This document shows, piece by piece, positions 3,192 through 21,800 of a stretch of 63,172 bases of DNA. The notes under the pieces were generated by a model. It was given only the letters and a program-made list of their open reading frames with translations, was not told the origin of the DNA and searched no databases. The stretch comes from Eubacteriales bacterium OttesenSCG-928-K08 (lineage in GTDB: Bacteria; Bacillota; Clostridia; Christensenellales; CAG-138), in assembly GCA_030266105.1 (NCBI GenBank), contig JAJDHH010000008.1, positions 1 to 63,172 on the forward strand, given 5' to 3'. Position 1 is the first letter of the stretch; each line of letters starts with the position of its first letter. The translations under genes were made by a program, and so were the position numbers.

Positions 3192-4457
3192 TTACTCATA
3201 TCTGAGCGCATCGATGGGGTCAAGCTTGGCAGCTTTGTTTGCTGGATAGTAGCCAAAGAATATGCCAATCGCCATCGAGAAGCTTACCGCAAGCGCGATT
3301 GAGCCGCCAGTTGGCATACTTGTCGCCCCTAACAAAGAGCTCCCCCAGTAGCCAAGCAATCCGCCAACCACAACGCCAATTGCGCCGCCAATCAGGCAAA
3401 TGATTATGCTTTCCACAACAAACTGGAAACGGATGTTGCCGTTTGTTGCGCCGAGCGCTTTTCGGGTGCCAATCTCGCGTGTGCGCTCCGTTACGGACAC
3501 GAGCATGATGTTCATGACCCCAATGCCACCAACAAGCAGCGATATTCCCGCAATTATTGCAAGCCCTGTGCTAAGGCTGCTCATCATGGTGTTCACCTGC
3601 TCGGTGATGCTTTCCATGCTCATTGTGTATATGCCAAATTTATCGTTGCTTTGATAGTAGCGGGAGAAAAACACGTTTACTACCTCGGCAAAAGCCTTGC
3701 TGTCCTGCGAGGAATCCGCCGTTACAGTAAAGGAATAGTATCCATCCGCGGCGCCGTTTAATCTTTTTGCGCTGGTCACAGGAATATAGAGGCTGGTGTT
3801 GATATCCTTATCTGCAGCAAAGGACATGTTCATCATGTTTTGTTCATAACGGTATACGCCGATGATCCTGAAAACATGCACCTCGTTGCCAACGCGTGTT
3901 TTGATCTCCTTACCAAGCGCCGCCTGAGCGTCGCCCCCGAACATATTGTTCACCAGCTTATCCGACACTAACGCAACGCTGCGCTGGCCATCAAGGTCGC
4001 GCGCCTCAATGTTTCGGCCCTGCAGGATTTCAATGTTATTGACAGCCAGGTAATCCTCATTTATTCCTGTGAGGGATACGTTTGCGTATAACCTTCCATC
4101 CTGCACCTTGCCGCTGCCTGCGGATTCAGAGATTGCTACGCCCACCAGCTGGTCGGAATAACGTTGCCTGAAGGCATCAATCATGTCGTCAGTAATAAGG
4201 TCGTCGTCGCTTACTTCAATATAGGTGGCGTTTCCATTTGCGTAATCATCGCCCTTTTGCTGGAGCATAACCATAATGTTGGATGCGCCAAGCGAGCTCA
4301 TGGAACTGGTTACTGTGGAGGAAAGGCCGTTGCCCACAGTTAAAATGCCGATTACCGAACCAATGCCTATGATTATGCCGAGCATTGTTAGCAGCGCGCG
4401 CATTTTGTTGGCCATTAGCCCTTCCCACGCAACGCGGATACTTTCGCCTAAATTCAC
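3192..4457 (-). CDS. MacB-type FtsX family ABC export permease
   Basis: This 421-residue membrane protein has the MacB layout: an N-terminal membrane helix (about residues 20-45), a large extracytoplasmic MacB_PCD domain (about 50-270), and three C-terminal helices of the FtsX domain. The conserved stretch VTERTREIGTRKALGA lies between the first two helices of that domain. Such permeases work as mechanotransmitters with a LolD-like ATPase rather than opening a classical pore. It is the last gene of a three-gene minus-strand operon. Its ATG overlaps the ATPase stop in an ATGA, so translation is coupled. Bacillota homologues commonly export antimicrobial peptides or envelope-active compounds; the substrate here is unknown. 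Confidence 0.92.
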   Translation of the reverse strand: MNLGESIRVAWEGLMANKMRALLTMLGIIIGIGSVIGILTVGNGLSSTVTSSMSSLGASNIMVMLQQKGDDYANGNATYIEVSDDDLITDDMIDAFRQRYSDQLVGVAISESAGSGKVQDGRLYANVSLTGINEDYLAVNNIEILQGRNIEARDLDGQRSVALVSDKLVNNMFGGDAQAALGKEIKTRVGNEVHVFRIIGVYRYEQNMMNMSFAADKDINTSLYIPVTSAKRLNGAADGYYSFTVTADSSQDSKAFAEVVNVFFSRYYQSNDKFGIYTMSMESITEQVNTMMSSLSTGLAIIAGISLLVGGIGVMNIMLVSVTERTREIGTRKALGATNGNIRFQFVVESIIICLIGGAIGVVVGGLLGYWGSSLLGATSMPTGGSIALAVSFSMAIGIFFGYYPANKAAKLDPIDALRYE

Positions 4458-5152
4458 GCAACCACCTCCCGATCCTCAGAAAGGTAACCATCGCGCATGT
4501 GGAGTATCCGCCCTGTTTCTGCGGAAAGTTCCCTGTTGTGCGTGATAAGCACGATCGTTTTGCCCTGCTCCTTGTTCAGCTTGTGGAAAATATCCATTAC
4601 CATGCGGCCGGTTTTGCTATCAAGCGCGCCGGTTGGTTCATCCGCAAGCAAAATCGCAGGGTCATTTGCCATCGCCCGGGCGATGGCGCAGCGCTGCTTT
4701 TGCCCGCCGGAAAGTTCGTTGGGCTGGTGAGTGAACCGATCCTGCATGCCGACCATCGCTAAAAGCTCCTTTGCGCGTGCAGTGCGCTCGCGCATGGGTA
4801 CGCCTGCGTACATCATGGGCAGCTCCACATTTTTAAGCGCGTTTGTGCGGGGGATCAGGTTAAAGTTTTGGAACACAAAACCAACCTTACGGTTTCGGAT
4901 GGAGGAAAGCTCATGGTCGTCAGCTTCCTCCACAACGGTGCCATCCAGAGTGTAGTGGCCAAGGGTTGGGCGATCCAGCGCGCCAATCAGGTTCATAAGC
5001 GTGGATTTTCCGGAGCCGGACGCGCCAACTATGGAAATAAACTCGCCCTTTTTAACAGTCAGGCTTATGCCATGCAAAATTTCAAGCTCGTTGGGCTCAC
5101 CAATGTAGAACCGCTTGATGATGTCCTCCATTTGAATAATCGTATCATTCAT
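4454..5152 (-). CDS. MacB/LolD-type ABC transporter ATPase
   Basis: This 232-residue cytoplasmic ATPase powers the FtsX permease encoded downstream. It shows Walker [10 protein letters not shown] (about residues 42-50), the signature LSGGQKQR (about 144-151) and Walker B ILLADEPTGALDS with the catalytic Glu. The switch His is in VLITHN. The LADEPTGALDS pattern and overall length are typical of the LolD/MacB family. It starts 15 bases after the adaptor gene with a GAGG site upstream, and it shares the 4-base ATGA overlap with the permease, so the three proteins are made as a unit. Confidence 0.95.
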   Translation of the reverse strand: MNDTIIQMEDIIKRFYIGEPNELEILHGISLTVKKGEFISIVGASGSGKSTLMNLIGALDRPTLGHYTLDGTVVEEADDHELSSIRNRKVGFVFQNFNLIPRTNALKNVELPMMYAGVPMRERTARAKELLAMVGMQDRFTHQPNELSGGQKQRCAIARAMANDPAILLADEPTGALDSKTGRMVMDIFHKLNKEQGKTIVLITHNRELSAETGRILHMRDGYLSEDREVVA

Positions 5153-5167
5153 ATTAGAACCTCATTC

Positions 5168-6883
5168 TTAGCCTACGCCAAACATCATCATCCCCGTGCC
5201 GCCGGAATAGACGCGATGTTCAGTAACAGGTATGCTCTGGCCAATCAACATCCGGTAATCGGTAGGCGCGTTGATTATGCGCAGCCCCTCAACCACACCT
5301 TCGCCATAAATCTCAACATCCAGGTCGTTTTCCATGCCGGTTTCAACTGGAAGCTCGCCTATGAGGTAATTTCCATCCGCCTGGGGTGTGATTATGAGCA
5401 CGCACTTTTGCCCCTGTGCGTTGGTGTACACAGCATCGTAAGGCACCTTTAGCACGTTTTCCCTGTGCTCGATAATGTAGTTAAGGCGCACGCTCATGCC
5501 TATGCGCAGGCGGTTATCCTTTGAAAGTATGGTCACCTCTGTGGGGAACACAACATCTGAGGAGCTTGTGGAGGACTTTGAGGATGTGGGTGCAATATGC
5601 GTGATTTCACCCTCATACACATCATCCCCGGTTGCATCCGACTTAATTGTAACAGGCATCCCCTCGGTGACGAGGTTCATGTCGTATTCCTTAACGGTGG
5701 TGTCTACCAGCAGGTTTTTAGTGTCCTCAATTACAAAGAGCAGGCCGGAGCCGGATTCGCCCTCTTTTGCGTAAACTGCAGTAACTGTGCCTGAAATAGG
5801 CGCTCTGATAACGGTATCCTCCAGGCTTTCCTGCAATGCTGCAAGCTCATAGAGCGCAAGCTCGTTGTTTGCGCCAAGCTGAGCTGTTTTGTAGGAGTTT
5901 AAGTTGGATTGCAGCTGCTGGTTAATGCTGGCTTCCGTTGCGGTGAGGCTTGTTTTAGCGCGGTCGTAAGCAGTTTGCGCGTTTTCAACAGCCTTTTCAT
6001 AGTCTTCCTCGGTCGAGTCCTTTGCCGCTTTTAGCGCATCGTAGGCATCGTTGTATGTTTCCAGCGCAGCATCAAGCGCACGCCTTGCGGTCGTTAGCTT
6101 GTGGTCGTAATCATCCGGCTTTGTGTCTCCAGGTGCAAGCACTGCATTTGCAAGCGAGTTATAGGTCGCCTTTGCGTTATCCAGTGCGGTTTGCGCCGAA
6201 CGCAGCGTCGCTTCCGCCTGTGCAATTAATGACACACGCTTGCCCGCCTTAAAATCAGCATAATTTTGCTGTGCGGTTTCCAGCTTTTCCTTTGCGTCCT
6301 GCACGGTGTTTTGTGCGGAGTTTAGCGTGGAGTTGAGGCCACTATCCAGCGCATCCTTGCTGGCGTTATAGCTATCCCTCGCACTTTTTACCTGCTGAGC
6401 AGCGCTTTTTGCTGAAATATTGATGGAAAGTTCCTTTTTCTCGATCTGGTCGCGCAGTGATTTTGAATCCAGCGTGCAAAGCGGATCGCCTTCATTAACA
6501 TAATCGCCCCGCTCAACATGTATTTCTTCTACATTATATGTTTGTGAGGAGTGCACATTTCGGCCCTGCGCTGTGATTACAGTACCTGTGGCGCCTACTG
6601 AATATTCAAGGTTACCATATGCAAGCACGGTTGTGTCGTCAAATGCAAGCAGGTTGCCAAGCACATTTTGTGCGGCGTTGCGGCATGTTATAAACACAAC
6701 GGCAATCACAATTACAATCACGCCAAGCACAATCCAGCGCGCTTTAATCTTTTTGCGCTTTTTCTTTTGCCCTGGCTGAGTTTTTTCGCGCTTGGCGCCC
6801 TTTTTAGGTTTGACTTTTTTCGGGTCGGCCACGACCTGTGCATCTGTTTGCTCAAGGGGCATGGTATTGATATCTTGATCCAT
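5168..6883 (-). CDS. HlyD/MacA-like adaptor protein with long coiled coil
   Basis: First gene of the exporter operon, 571 residues. It has a lysine-rich cytoplasmic tail (about residues 22-48), one membrane helix (about 49-70, starting RWIVLG), a biotinyl-lipoyl-like half motif, a long Ala/Gln/Lys-rich coiled-coil hairpin (about 150-330), the second lipoyl half with APISGTVT, and beta-barrel domains. This is the membrane-fusion layout used by MacA and HlyD. The coiled coil is long for a Gram-positive adaptor. The ATG at 6883 is preferred over in-frame ATGs at 6892 and 6910: AAAGGA lies correctly spaced before it, and the predicted promoter start near 6902 would leave the 6910 ATG untranscribed. 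Confidence 0.88.
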   Translation of the reverse strand: MDQDINTMPLEQTDAQVVADPKKVKPKKGAKREKTQPGQKKKRKKIKARWIVLGVIVIVIAVVFITCRNAAQNVLGNLLAFDDTTVLAYGNLEYSVGATGTVITAQGRNVHSSQTYNVEEIHVERGDYVNEGDPLCTLDSKSLRDQIEKKELSINISAKSAAQQVKSARDSYNASKDALDSGLNSTLNSAQNTVQDAKEKLETAQQNYADFKAGKRVSLIAQAEATLRSAQTALDNAKATYNSLANAVLAPGDTKPDDYDHKLTTARRALDAALETYNDAYDALKAAKDSTEEDYEKAVENAQTAYDRAKTSLTATEASINQQLQSNLNSYKTAQLGANNELALYELAALQESLEDTVIRAPISGTVTAVYAKEGESGSGLLFVIEDTKNLLVDTTVKEYDMNLVTEGMPVTIKSDATGDDVYEGEITHIAPTSSKSSTSSSDVVFPTEVTILSKDNRLRIGMSVRLNYIIEHRENVLKVPYDAVYTNAQGQKCVLIITPQADGNYLIGELPVETGMENDLDVEIYGEGVVEGLRIINAPTDYRMLIGQSIPVTEHRVYSGGTGMMMFGVG

Positions 6884-6908
6884 GTGTTCCATTCCTTTCC
6901 ATATGCGC

Positions 6909-6937
6909 ATTATAAAGCGGTCGCCCGCATCTGTTTA
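6909..6937 (-). promoter_or_regulatory. Promoter of the MacA-MacB-like export operon
   Basis: On the minus strand TAAACA (6937-6932) is followed after 17 bases by a consensus TATAAT (6914-6909). Transcription would begin near 6902, giving a leader of about 19 bases that still contains the AAAGGA ribosome binding site. Confidence 0.6.
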
Positions 6938-17443: not shown

Positions 17444-17473
17444 AAAAAAGCGCCTGAATAAGGCGCTTTTTTT
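17444..17473 (+). terminator. Rho-independent terminator after yajC
   Basis: AGCGCCT (17449-17455) pairs with AGGCGCT (17461-17467), flanked by an A run and a run of seven T. A textbook terminator. Confidence 0.93.
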
Positions 17474-17852
17474 CGTACAAAGCCGGATTGTCAAATATCA
17501 GCACATAGAATATTTCAAATATGAGCGCTTGCAGATATGGACAATTTCTAAAAACAGTATATGATCGTAGGGTGCTCAGGCGCATAATCATTGCTTTTCA
17601 CACTTTGGATACATGTGTTAAAAAAGCGTTGCGCTTGATATATATTCTTAATGAAACGTTTATGAAAAGTTTATTTGATACGCTTTACTTGCTGGCGTAT
17701 AATAGCAACGGGCGCATTTTTGGCAAGAATGAAACTTTTCTGTTAATACATGCGTTCTTTGATTAAGGCGTTATATAGCATTGATCAAGTATGGCCGTTT
17801 GCGGCTGCGCATACGATTAAAATAATAATTTTTGAGGGTATTGGGGGGCATA
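17474..17852 (+). other. Leader and intergenic region of the second export operon
   Basis: TTGATA (17675-17680), 17 bases, TATAAT (17698-17703) is a strong promoter. It leaves a leader of about 140 bases before the ATPase ATG at 17853. An 81-codon frame at 17521-17766 has no ribosome binding site and runs across the promoter, so it is not called. No riboswitch fold is recognised in the leader. Confidence 0.7.
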
Positions 17853-18599
17853 ATGGAACAAGCTTACGAAATCGCCGGCGCGGCTGCGTCCACTACCAAA
17901 AAAGAAATCATCATTGATATTCGAGACCTTAAAAAAACGTACCGCGTGGGTTCTGTAAACGTACATGCGCTTAGCGGCATAAACTTTTCCCTAAACCGTG
18001 GGGAGATTTGCTGCGTTGTGGGGCGTTCAGGTTCGGGCAAATCAACGCTTTTGAACCTTATGGCGGGTCTTGAAGGCCCAACCAGCGGCGAAATTGTAAT
18101 TGCACGCCAGCATGTTGAAAAAATGAATCAAAGCGAGCTGATTTTGTTCCGGCAGCAGCATGTGGGTTTTATTTTCCAATCGTTTAACCTCATGCCATAT
18201 TATACTGCGCTTGAAAATGTCGCCTTCCCGCTTGTGTTTAGGGGAATGAGTAAGAGAAAGCGCATGAAGCTTGCTAGAGAAATGCTTTGCTCAGTTGGCT
18301 TGGAAACCCACCTTAAGCACAAACCAACACAAATGAGCGGAGGGCAGCAGCAGCGCGTGGGTATTGCAAGGGCGCTTGTGACCAACCCGGAAATCGTATT
18401 TGCGGATGAACCCACAGGCAACCTTGACAGCAAAACATCCGATGAGGTTATGAACCTTATTTGCGATATAGCACGCACACAGAATAAAACATTGGTAATG
18501 GTCACCCATGACCCTAATATGGCCGCTTTTACGGATAAGGCGGTGCATCTGTTGGATGGCCAGGTAGTCAAAATAGATGAAAACACTAGGGAAATATAG
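17853..18599 (+). CDS. LolD/MacB-type ABC transporter ATPase
   Basis: A 248-residue ATPase, the first gene of a three-gene export cluster. It has Walker A GRSGSGKST (about residues 57-65), signature MSGGQQQR, Walker B IVFADEPTGNLDS and the switch His in VMVTHD. A short N-terminal extension of about 20 residues precedes the ATPase core. GGGGGG lies before the ATG at 17853; a TTG seven codons earlier is less likely. It is followed by an envelope protein and an FtsX permease, which it should energise. Confidence 0.94.
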   Translation: MEQAYEIAGAAASTTKKEIIIDIRDLKKTYRVGSVNVHALSGINFSLNRGEICCVVGRSGSGKSTLLNLMAGLEGPTSGEIVIARQHVEKMNQSELILFRQQHVGFIFQSFNLMPYYTALENVAFPLVFRGMSKRKRMKLAREMLCSVGLETHLKHKPTQMSGGQQQRVGIARALVTNPEIVFADEPTGNLDSKTSDEVMNLICDIARTQNKTLVMVTHDPNMAAFTDKAVHLLDGQVVKIDENTREI

Positions 18600-18610
18600 G
18601 AGGACGGGTT

Positions 18611-20434
18611 ATGAGGGGCAAAAAACTATTAGCGGTTGTTCTGTGCGCAGCGGTGGCGCTTTCACTTTTGCCGACGGTGGCGTTGGCGGCGCACGCGACT
18701 GTTTCGGCCAAGCTGACCAATGGGAACATTGCCGTGATTGCTACCAGTCAGACGGTATATTTTAATGTTGAGTTTAAAAATACCGGTACAGAGGCTAAAA
18801 AAGTGCTGGCAAAGGCAGATGTGAGCGCATCCACCAACTTAATGGCCGCGAACATTGTTTCAGGATATTTGATAGTATCTGCGGGCGACACAGTTGTTGA
18901 GGAGGTTCGTGCCACCGTAAAATCAGGAGTTATTGAAGCAAACAACAACGAGACAATCAGCTTTTCTGTTGAAGGCGATACGGATGCGGTGGTGCTCAAT
19001 TTCCCATTTGCAGCCAATATTTCCACAGGCTCGAACAACAACAACAACAATAACAACTCCGGTGGCGTAGACAATGGCAACAATGGCGGCACAACCGGAG
19101 AAACACTGCCCATACTGACCCTTTCCGCCACAGGCGCAAACGGCAGCGCGGTTGCCGCGCCTTCGGGCAACGCCGGAAACAACGTTCAGGTGCGCCTGCC
19201 GATCTACAACCGCGGCTCAAAATCCACCGAGCGGGCAACCGATATCCGTGTCACGCCGGTGCTTTCAGCTTCGCTGGATAGCTTCCCATTTGAAATCAGC
19301 GAGGTGGATTATTCGCGCAAGGTGCCGGATATGAGGCCGGGCAACACGCAGGAAATCGTATACAATTTCAAGCTCTCCAAAAATGTCACAAGCGGCGTAA
19401 AGGAAGTTAAGTTCAACGTGGTTTATTACAACCGCGCAACCTCGGCTTACGAAAGCAACACCTTCTCCGTTTTCGTAACGGTAGTGAAGGGCGCAAGCGA
19501 AAGCCTGACAAACTCGGATGGCGAGCTTATCACAACCACGCCCAAGGTGATAATCGAAGGTTCAACATTAAAGGCGCTAAGCCCTGAGGAAGGCGACGAT
19601 GCCGATAGGCTGTTTGCAGGCGAGCCATTCTCGCTAACCATGAAGTTTAGGAACACCTCTGAGGAGGCTGTCAAAAACATTCAGATCACGCTGAGCAACG
19701 ATGGCAGCGTAATCATGCCCGCAAACAATGGCAGCAACTCGCTCTATATCGATAAGATTGGCGCGGGTGAGGTGGTTGAGCGCACTGTGGAGCTGCAGTC
19801 CACACCGGATGCCGACCCCAAACCACAGGTGATATCCGTCAAGTTTGCGTATGAAAGCGCAAAGACACTAAAATCCTACGATGTTACGGAAACCATCTCC
19901 GTGCCGATTTCACAGCGTATGCGCGTGCGGGTGGATGATCCTGTTATGTATGATTCGTCCACTATGCAGGATAGTCCAACTCCGCTGTATGTCAGCTTAT
20001 ATAACATGGGCAAGTCCCAGCTATACAACTGCATGGTGAGCATTGAGGGCGAGGGCCTTCGCATGGAGGAAACATATTTCCACGGAACAGTTTCGTCCGG
20101 CGGCACAATGCGTGCAGATTTTAACATAATCCCATCTGTGGCGGGCAGCATTGACGCGATCATAGTGATAACCTATGAAGATGCTTATGGCACGCCAATC
20201 CGCATCGAAAAGCCCATGACTGTTGAGGTTATGGAAGCATATGACCCCGGAGACATGATGGAAGACCCGACATTTGGCGGCGAAATAATAATGGATCCCG
20301 ATCAAAATGGCGCTTCGGGAATGCCCACGTGGTTGATTATAACCTTGGTGGCTGCCGGCCTGATTGCGGTGGCGGTGGTTATTACTTTAATCAGGCGCAA
20401 AAAGCGCAAGGCGGAATTGACGGAGGGTTTATGA
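18611..20434 (+). CDS. Secreted CARDB/S-layer-like (COG1361) protein in the adaptor position of an ABC exporter
   Basis: A type I membrane protein of 607 residues. A signal peptide (cleavage after about residue 26, VALA-AHA) is followed by a beta-sandwich domain, an Asn/Gly linker with a run of eight Asn (about 140-160), more immunoglobulin-like CARDB-type domains up to about 565, one membrane helix (about 572-592) and a short basic tail RRKKRK. These domains resemble the archaeal and bacterial COG1361 S-layer-like family. It sits between the ATPase gene (12-base gap) and the permease gene (ATGA overlap), the place normally held by a HlyD/MacA adaptor. An extracytoplasmic partner role for the exporter is inferred. 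Confidence 0.82.
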   Translation: MRGKKLLAVVLCAAVALSLLPTVALAAHATVSAKLTNGNIAVIATSQTVYFNVEFKNTGTEAKKVLAKADVSASTNLMAANIVSGYLIVSAGDTVVEEVRATVKSGVIEANNNETISFSVEGDTDAVVLNFPFAANISTGSNNNNNNNNSGGVDNGNNGGTTGETLPILTLSATGANGSAVAAPSGNAGNNVQVRLPIYNRGSKSTERATDIRVTPVLSASLDSFPFEISEVDYSRKVPDMRPGNTQEIVYNFKLSKNVTSGVKEVKFNVVYYNRATSAYESNTFSVFVTVVKGASESLTNSDGELITTTPKVIIEGSTLKALSPEEGDDADRLFAGEPFSLTMKFRNTSEEAVKNIQITLSNDGSVIMPANNGSNSLYIDKIGAGEVVERTVELQSTPDADPKPQVISVKFAYESAKTLKSYDVTETISVPISQRMRVRVDDPVMYDSSTMQDSPTPLYVSLYNMGKSQLYNCMVSIEGEGLRMEETYFHGTVSSGGTMRADFNIIPSVAGSIDAIIVITYEDAYGTPIRIEKPMTVEVMEAYDPGDMMEDPTFGGEIIMDPDQNGASGMPTWLIITLVAAGLIAVAVVITLIRRKKRKAELTEGL

Positions 20435-21747
20435 GCATAAAGGATATGCTATCCATCGCCGCGATGAACCTGCGCAGGCGAAAGCTGCGCACGTTCCTAA
20501 CGGTGCTGGGCATGGCAATTGGCACAGCTTCCATTGTGGTCATGGTTTCTCTGGGCATAGGCATGCAGGAGGTTACCAAAGAAATCTTCGAAGGGTACGG
20601 AAGCCTGACGCTGATTAATGTTTACAATTATAGCTATCAGGATCCATCACAAACGAGCAATTCAATGGTTTGGAGCTCCGGCAGCGAGGTAACTTTGGAT
20701 GCTAAAAAGGTGGATGAGTTTAAGCGCATCCCCGGCGTGCAGGCAGTTATGCCGCTTGTGCAGGTGTATGGTTATCTCAAAAGCGGCCAGTATGTGAGCG
20801 GCATACAGATTATGGGTGTTGATGCCGCAAGCGCTGAACAATTTGGTTTTGTGCTGGATCAGGGGCGGCTGCCAAACACCAGCACAGGCTCAAACTATGA
20901 GCTGACGTTGGGGAACTACGTGCTCTATAATTTTTATAATCCCAAAACCTACAGGCAGGCGGTGGATAACGAGGGGAACCCGCGTGTTTCACTGGATAAA
21001 TCCCGCTTCCAGCTCACATTTGATCACCGCAACATATATGAGTATGAGGATTATGGCGGGGAGTCAACGCCCAAGGGAAAGATGTACAAGGTTAATGTTG
21101 TGGGTGCGCTCTCACAGGAAGGCGGCATGAACGCGTATTATACACTTATGGATATAAATGCCCTCAACCGCCTGTACCGCGAAAATAAGGATAATATGTA
21201 CGGCTTGGAAACTGGCAAGTATCAAGAGGTGTGGGTCAAATGTGAAAGCACTGATGATGTTGTTGCCGTGCAGGAAAAGATCAACTCCATGGGCTATGCA
21301 GCCTACAGCGTGCAGGAGGGGCTGCAAACCCAGCAGGAAATGCAGCGGCAAACCCAAATGCTGCTTGGCGCAATCGGCGGCGTAGCGCTGCTTGTAGCGG
21401 CAATTGGCATTATGAACACGATGATGATGAGCATTTACGAGCGCACGAAGGAAATTGGCATCATAAAGGTGCTCGGCTGCAGAATGGGCAATATCGCCGG
21501 GCTGTTCCTCACAGAATCGGCCTTTATCGGCCTGATCGGCGGCGCTGTTGGCCTTGGCGTGAGCTATGCTTTATCATATGTGCTTAATACGCAGATTATG
21601 GAGACTGCGGGTATCCGCAGCATTATCCCGCTCTATCTTTCACTTGGCGCCGTGGTGTTCTCCATGGGTGTGGCGCTAATTTCGGGCATGTATCCCGCAT
21701 TTAGAGCGATGCGCCTTTCAGCGTTGACGGCGATCCGTGCTGAATAA
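20431..21747 (+). CDS. MacB-type FtsX family ABC export permease
   Basis: A 438-residue permease. An N-terminal helix (about residues 20-45, LRTFLTVLGMAIGTASIVVM), a large extracytoplasmic MacB_PCD-like domain (about 50-300) and three C-terminal helices with the conserved IYERTKEIGIIKVLGC segment define the family. GGAGGG lies 3-4 bases before the ATG at 20431, which overlaps the stop of the CARDB-like gene as ATGA. It should form the membrane core of the complex with the ATPase at 17853 and the secreted protein at 18611. The exported substrate is unknown. Confidence 0.93.
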   Translation: MSIKDMLSIAAMNLRRRKLRTFLTVLGMAIGTASIVVMVSLGIGMQEVTKEIFEGYGSLTLINVYNYSYQDPSQTSNSMVWSSGSEVTLDAKKVDEFKRIPGVQAVMPLVQVYGYLKSGQYVSGIQIMGVDAASAEQFGFVLDQGRLPNTSTGSNYELTLGNYVLYNFYNPKTYRQAVDNEGNPRVSLDKSRFQLTFDHRNIYEYEDYGGESTPKGKMYKVNVVGALSQEGGMNAYYTLMDINALNRLYRENKDNMYGLETGKYQEVWVKCESTDDVVAVQEKINSMGYAAYSVQEGLQTQQEMQRQTQMLLGAIGGVALLVAAIGIMNTMMMSIYERTKEIGIIKVLGCRMGNIAGLFLTESAFIGLIGGAVGLGVSYALSYVLNTQIMETAGIRSIIPLYLSLGAVVFSMGVALISGMYPAFRAMRLSALTAIRAE

Positions 21748-21772
21748 TAATTCTATAGAATATATTCTATTG

Positions 21773-21800
21773 CGGATCGGCGTTTTACGCCGATCCGTTT
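21773..21800 (+). terminator. Terminator after the second export operon
   Basis: CGGATCGGCGT (21773-21783) pairs perfectly with ACGCCGATCCG (21787-21797) around a TTT loop, followed by TTT. Confidence 0.82.

Follow-up and report, generated by a model that had tools for sequence, protein, structure and literature searches.

An ABC transporter unit of Clostridia with a tandem Ig-like protein in the genetic place of HlyD

Type VII ABC transporters pass ATP-driven movement to the outside of the cell and need not carry a substance across the bilayer; FtsEX works as such a relay (PMC5985334, PMC11466899). A review of the MacB family raises the role of adaptors in bacteria without an outer membrane (PMC5985334). 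In Bacillus subtilis, the operon of the MacB-like permease YtrF, ytrGABCDEF, is induced by cell-wall inhibitors, and its published description contains neither an Ig/CARDB protein nor HlyD (PMC12772383). Among the open-access papers searched, none was found that links CARDB, NEW3 or COG1361 proteins with MacB-type operons (PMC5256962, PMC4452783 and PMC3415414 are unrelated to such a pairing), and no published description of an ATPase-Ig protein-permease unit was found. A unit of this kind is described here from a gut-type Clostridia genome that is 59% complete, within an analysed stretch of 63,172 nucleotides (the window).

Layout of the unit and its ATPase and permease

The unit lies on the forward strand and consists, in order, of an ATPase, a tandem Ig-like protein (the Ig protein) and a MacB-type permease, self-contained between two strong hairpins. 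The first, with a T-run, lies at about 17444-17475 (minimum free energy -18.8 kcal/mol, z -5.0, none of 200 shuffled sequences as stable) and is a probable (bidirectional) terminator separating the unit from an upstream YajC-like gene. The second is a GC-rich hairpin 3' of the permease stop, at about 21772-21799 on the forward strand (minimum free energy -21.9 kcal/mol, z -6.6), and is likewise a probable terminator. Between them, a sigma-70-type promoter-like box, TTGATA-17-TATAAT, stands on the forward strand at 17675-17703; it agrees with the consensus at 11 of 12 positions, a consensus match only, and is the best of 23 matches in the region, where weaker ones are common by chance. The ATPase gene (17853-18599, 248 amino acids) begins with ATG 17853, preceded by a GGGGGG run, and its stop is adjoined by AGGAGG. 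The Ig gene (18611-20434, 607 amino acids) follows on the same strand, and its stop overlaps the permease start, ATG 20431, as ATGA; the permease gene (20431-21747) encodes 438 amino acids with four transmembrane (TM) helices. The first-pass annotation had described a promoter followed by a LolD-like ATPase, a CARDB-like protein and a MacB-type permease, with 12-base spacing and an ATGA overlap. The promoter-like box and the three genes were recovered in this order and on this strand, and the overlap stands; the first gap is 11 bases (18600-18610) rather than 12.

The ATPase belongs to the LolD/MacB/FtsE branch and matches Pfam ABC_tran (PF00005, E 6e-35). Its best NCBIfam match is LolD, below the cut-off of that model. 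Its motifs are intact (Walker A GRSGSGKST, signature MSGGQ, Walker B/D-loop FADEPTGNLD), as expected of the separate or fused LolD/MacB-branch ATPases of type VII systems. The permease (P0003) matches MacB_PCD (PF12704) and FtsX (PF02687) over their cut-offs, and a Foldseek search with its model returned MacB, YtrF and LolE as best matches (about 1e-20 to 1e-19), so that the MacB-type assignment is borne out. In this model (pLDDT 92), an extracytoplasmic domain at about 57-293 is framed by long helices (18-56 and 294-337). As modelled, the permease thus has the stalk-and-domain architecture required for the type VII mechanism, namely an FtsX-type protein of four TM helices with a large extracytoplasmic domain carried on helical stalks between TM1 and TM2.

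Architecture and conservation of the Ig protein

The Ig protein begins with a Sec signal peptide (about 1-26) that has an AxA cleavage site and is without a lipobox, followed by a variable N-terminal part and an Asn-rich linker (136-165). In the AlphaFold model (m929fa371c339), three confident Ig-like beta-sandwiches are seen at 166-291, 305-434 and 439-541, with pLDDT mostly above 90 over 169-541 and the N-terminal part poorly modelled. A further linker leads to a single TM helix (about 573-595) and a cationic tail, RRKKRKAELTEGL. Because a signal peptide is combined with a C-terminal TM helix and tail, a type I membrane topology is predicted, which would place almost the entire protein outside, in keeping with the secreted, C-terminally anchored protein of the first-pass annotation. 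Of 64 homologues, 61 carry the C-terminal TM helix, and the tail is typically basic. Homologues range in length from about 270 to more than 900 amino acids. Short versions (271-294 amino acids; L151, L167, L168) occur in the same gene order and are apparently a minimal form of the subunit.

The name CARDB-like holds for the family, in which 53 of the 64 homologues match PF07705 (counted at E up to 0.001), 39 match NPCBM_assoc (NEW3) and 21 match Transglut_C; taken by itself, the window's own copy does not show as a plain Pfam CARDB member, PF07705 being unmatched and Transglut_C (E 1e-8) its sole Pfam match. No SLH or wall-binding Pfam profile of the S-layer kind is matched by this copy, and its anchor is a TM helix. 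By sequence, no credible solved relative was found; the antibody Fab matches fall mainly on the signal peptide and on the N-terminal part, where the model is poor. Foldseek matches were to generic Ig chains at TM-scores of about 0.2 and were discarded as a functional clue.

Among the homologues, the two membrane-proximal Ig domains and the cationic tail are the most conserved parts. The strongly conserved columns number 35 and 24 in these two domains, and distally 9, then 1, so that 59 fall in Ig2 and Ig3 against 1 in the N-terminal domain. No HlyD profile is matched by the window protein (Pfam), and none is listed for the 64 family members. Lipoyl/barrel-sandwich domains and coiled-coil hairpins are absent from both the sequence and the all-beta Ig model. 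Because no HlyD feature appears in either, the Ig protein shares the genetic place of HlyD and not its architecture; the suggestion that it is an adaptor of the HlyD kind fails on structure, the anchor also being at the opposite end.

Ig and HlyD proteins beside MacB-like permeases

Lack of conservation of the neighbourhood had been set beforehand as one outcome that would refute the unit; it did not occur, and the triple proved to be conserved far beyond the family. An Ig homologue was found in 25 of 61 genomes from the window's own family and order, where the good matches have the ATPase upstream and the permease downstream of the Ig gene, and in 64 of 291 genomes of a class sample. All genomes searched are of one phylum, and the order ATPase-Ig protein-permease was seen in nearly every locus read in the family, class and phylum samples. 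With gene starts in relatives called mechanically, most loci have the end of the Ig gene overlapping the permease reading frame or separated from it by no more than about 12 bases. Except for unrelated ABC ATPases, no flanking gene recurs in more than a few loci, and the unit is therefore one of exactly three genes. No plasmid-borne relatives were found. One locus (L164, in G553) has the order Ig protein-ATPase-permease, and in two others (L128 in G390, L154 in G407) the permease frame is broken by an in-frame stop or split frames, possibly through decay or misassembly.

To guard against circularity, 299 genomes of the phylum were searched with a permease profile and without reference to the Ig protein. 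Besides the window's own, a YtrF/MacB-like permease was present in 44 of them: 34 with an Ig protein (including G574, whose Ig locus is apparently split over two contigs), 8 with HlyD directly downstream and no Ig protein, 2 with neither and none with both. The proposal that the Ig/CARDB protein takes the place of the HlyD adaptor is upheld by these counts. A search of the same genomes with the Ig protein gave 40 positives. The permease was present in 35 of these, against about 6 expected by chance; this co-occurrence (35/40 and 35/45 genomes) has a Fisher value of 3e-31, which overstates the significance because related genomes are not independent. When loci were tallied, including those found through the Ig protein, YtrF-type permeases stood beside an Ig protein in 94 cases, HlyD in 5, neither in 2 and both in none; classical permeases stood beside HlyD in 27 cases and an Ig protein in none, with nothing detected in 1 at a contig end. 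No HlyD match was found near the permease in loci with an Ig protein. In three archaeal control genomes, PF07705 and PF12704 both occur, scored as presence per genome. Correlations between subunit distance matrices (mirror-tree) were 0.72-0.78, including one of r 0.73, and were set aside as a sign of contact because species phylogeny confounds high values.

The window also contains a classical operon on the reverse strand (3192-6910), confirming the HlyD-ATPase-permease operon annotated at 3192-6883. It comprises a MacB-type permease (P0004, 3192-4457) and its ATPase (4454-5152), both identified by Pfam, and a HlyD-family adaptor (5168-6910, likely start 6883) with HlyD_3 and HlyD_D23 matches and RND_mfp over the cut-off. 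In a tree of 73 permeases, the classical HlyD-linked group, including P0004, is split from the YtrF-type group, including P0003, with 100% SH-aLRT support, and P0003 does not group with the MacB and S. pneumoniae MacB permeases. Scores to P0003 drop at this boundary: on one side they are at least 120 bits and span the full length, on the other they reach about 80 bits at most and come mainly from the C-terminal part. In a profile search of solved structures, YtrF came first for the P0003 clade (255 bits, residues 1-435), ahead of MacB entries at 172-185 bits whose best stretch lies in the C-terminal TM region; P0004 comes nearest to the solved MacB and S. pneumoniae MacB. The first-pass annotation had seen two adaptor solutions for the same transporter class. 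Ig protein and HlyD are indeed alternatives, but the two operons do not encode one transporter with two adaptors, because their permeases sit in different clades. A third MacB_PCD-like match of this genome (L204:3877-6305, contig G000:C24) adjoins a weak HlyD match.

Within the YtrF-type clade, HlyD-linked permeases form one subclade (99%), with HlyD downstream instead of upstream. HlyD and the Ig protein are thus alternatives within this clade, probably through one or a few exchanges; with the HlyD-linked permeases confined to one subclade, as few as one or two such events may have taken place. Seven loci with a YtrF-type permease and no Ig protein (L158, L159, L160, L161, L163, L195, L196) have the order ATPase-permease-HlyD, which differs from the classical HlyD-ATPase-permease order. 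Four positions separate Ig-linked from HlyD-linked YtrF-type permeases; they lie in TM2, TM3 and the TM3-TM4 region, with none in the extracytoplasmic domain, and would fit a contact at the level of the membrane, the HlyD-linked set being one clade of small numbers.

Genomes with an Ig protein and without a detected YtrF-type permease were also inspected. The Ig protein follows a long FtsX-type permease in G358 and G541, with an ATPase seen in G541, and the order in G060 is that of G358; in G145, the Ig protein is followed by an ATPase and a long FtsX permease. An ATPase, a small hydrophobic protein and the Ig protein follow one another in G408 and in a second copy in G533, the small protein being possibly ABC-2-like by size and position only. 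In G484, a YtrF-type permease has a damaged end, and in G561 the Ig protein lies at a contig edge beside an ATPase. In the window's own genome, contig G000:C37 carries a second exporter-like cluster (L070:1349-10392). An ABC ATPase and an Ig homologue that is CARDB-positive and cut by the contig end lie there together with two-component-like genes, two hydrophobic genes that match nothing in Pfam and two lipoprotein-like genes, one of them DUF6034 by Pfam. The Ig protein is not bound to permeases of the YtrF-type fold, since relatives of it also stand beside long FtsX-type and ABC-2-like exporters. The chances seem evenly balanced that ABC exporters of Clostridia have a general class of subunit that had gone unrecognised, the C-anchored Ig-rod proteins, which would serve three or more unrelated permease architectures (YtrF/MacB-type, long FtsX-type and ABC-2-like) and replace HlyD in the first.

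By locus, an Ig/CARDB protein adjoins a long FtsX-type permease in L197, L200, L079 and L165 (about 780 amino acids in L165), the FtsX domain occurring twice where the permease is complete. An ATPase, a small hydrophobic protein and an Ig/CARDB protein stand in a row in L198:1735-5844, where a GntR-like regulator precedes them, and in L202:2691-6377. Clusters like that of G000:C37 occur in the relatives L071, L076 and L077.

Proposed mechanism and comparison with known systems

The reading favoured here, with moderate confidence, is that the products of the three genes form a single type VII (MacB/YtrF-like, mechanotransmission) ABC complex, with the Ig protein as a dedicated, C-terminally anchored extracytoplasmic subunit in the genetic niche of HlyD. 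The TM helix and membrane-proximal Ig domains of the Ig protein would bind the permease, and the Ig rod would receive the movement that ATP drives in the stalk and extracytoplasmic domain of the permease, the conserved membrane-proximal domains coupling to the extracytoplasmic domain. Farther out, in the wall zone, the variable distal rod may hold a ligand located in the membrane or wall, or pass it on; the first-pass annotation had suggested that the protein may guide substrates through the thick wall or tie the transporter to surface proteins. The Ig protein would then serve as an arm by which a ligand or partner is held, presented or released; its fold makes a sealed channel of the HlyD type unlikely. 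Weighing against the favoured reading, relatives of the Ig protein stand beside other exporter types too, and the HlyD-linked YtrF-type permeases may go back to as few as one or two exchanges.

Alternatively, there may be no transport at all: the permease would switch the Ig protein, and the latter would bind a cell-wall enzyme or surface protein and activate or position it. Other type VII systems, FtsEX among them, act in this way (PMC5985334, PMC11466899), an Ig rod is an ordinary binding scaffold, and the closest solved permease, YtrF, comes from the operon induced by cell-wall inhibitors. However, no cell-wall enzyme gene is among the conserved neighbours, deletion of YtrF in B. subtilis gave no clear autolysis phenotype (PMC12772383), and the exchange with HlyD suggests a pump-like role, so that this alternative appears rather unlikely. 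Secreted surface proteins commonly have CARDB and Ig repeats, and the Ig gene lies inside a transporter operon, as could be expected if its product were a substrate, a surface protein moved or released by the transporter, instead of a subunit. This is improbable for a protein that has its own Sec signal peptide, is anchored C-terminally in nearly all homologues, replaces HlyD in the operon and, unlike cargo, is most conserved beside the membrane. Oligomerisation into a true HlyD-type channel atop the permease would suit the shared operon class and mutual exclusion with HlyD, but is very improbable given the lack of hairpin, lipoyl and barrel-sandwich domains and the variable rod length.

Under the favoured reading of a dedicated subunit, a function would be given to widespread proteins whose present annotation goes no further than CARDB, S-layer or cell-adhesion. 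Moreover, because the large natural group that has the Ig rod where relatives carry HlyD has sister permeases that keep HlyD, the adaptor question becomes testable by comparison and exchange.

Among described systems, YtrEF of B. subtilis (PDB 9o9x/9o9y) is the closest, with a separate ATPase, a four-TM permease and the nearest solved structure over the full length; the ytr operon as published is without an Ig protein, whereas almost every locus of the present unit includes an Ig subunit. FtsEX likewise pairs an ATPase with a four-TM permease that relays motion to extracytoplasmic partners, but the present permease is far from FtsX (about 35-43 bits versus 255 for YtrF), its extracytoplasmic domain is of MacB size, and its partner is an anchored protein of the same operon. 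Proteins with CARDB, NPCBM-associated (NEW3) or Transglut_C domains, often annotated as S-layer or cell-adhesion proteins, have profiles that match the Ig family; these profiles name a domain fold, for which the papers searched gave no link to MacB-type exporters. With MacAB, YknXYZ and the MacAB-type system of S. pneumoniae, the unit shares a LolD/MacB-branch ATPase, a MacB-type permease and an operon-encoded, membrane-anchored extracytoplasmic third protein. There, the third protein is an N-terminally anchored HlyD/MacA adaptor with a hairpin and a lipoyl/barrel-sandwich domain, which the unit does not encode; here, it is a C-terminally anchored Ig rod, and the permease belongs to another clade. 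Altogether, because it occupies, across the phylum, the spot otherwise held by HlyD in such pumps, the Ig protein looks like an undescribed alternative subunit for YtrF/MacB-like pumps.
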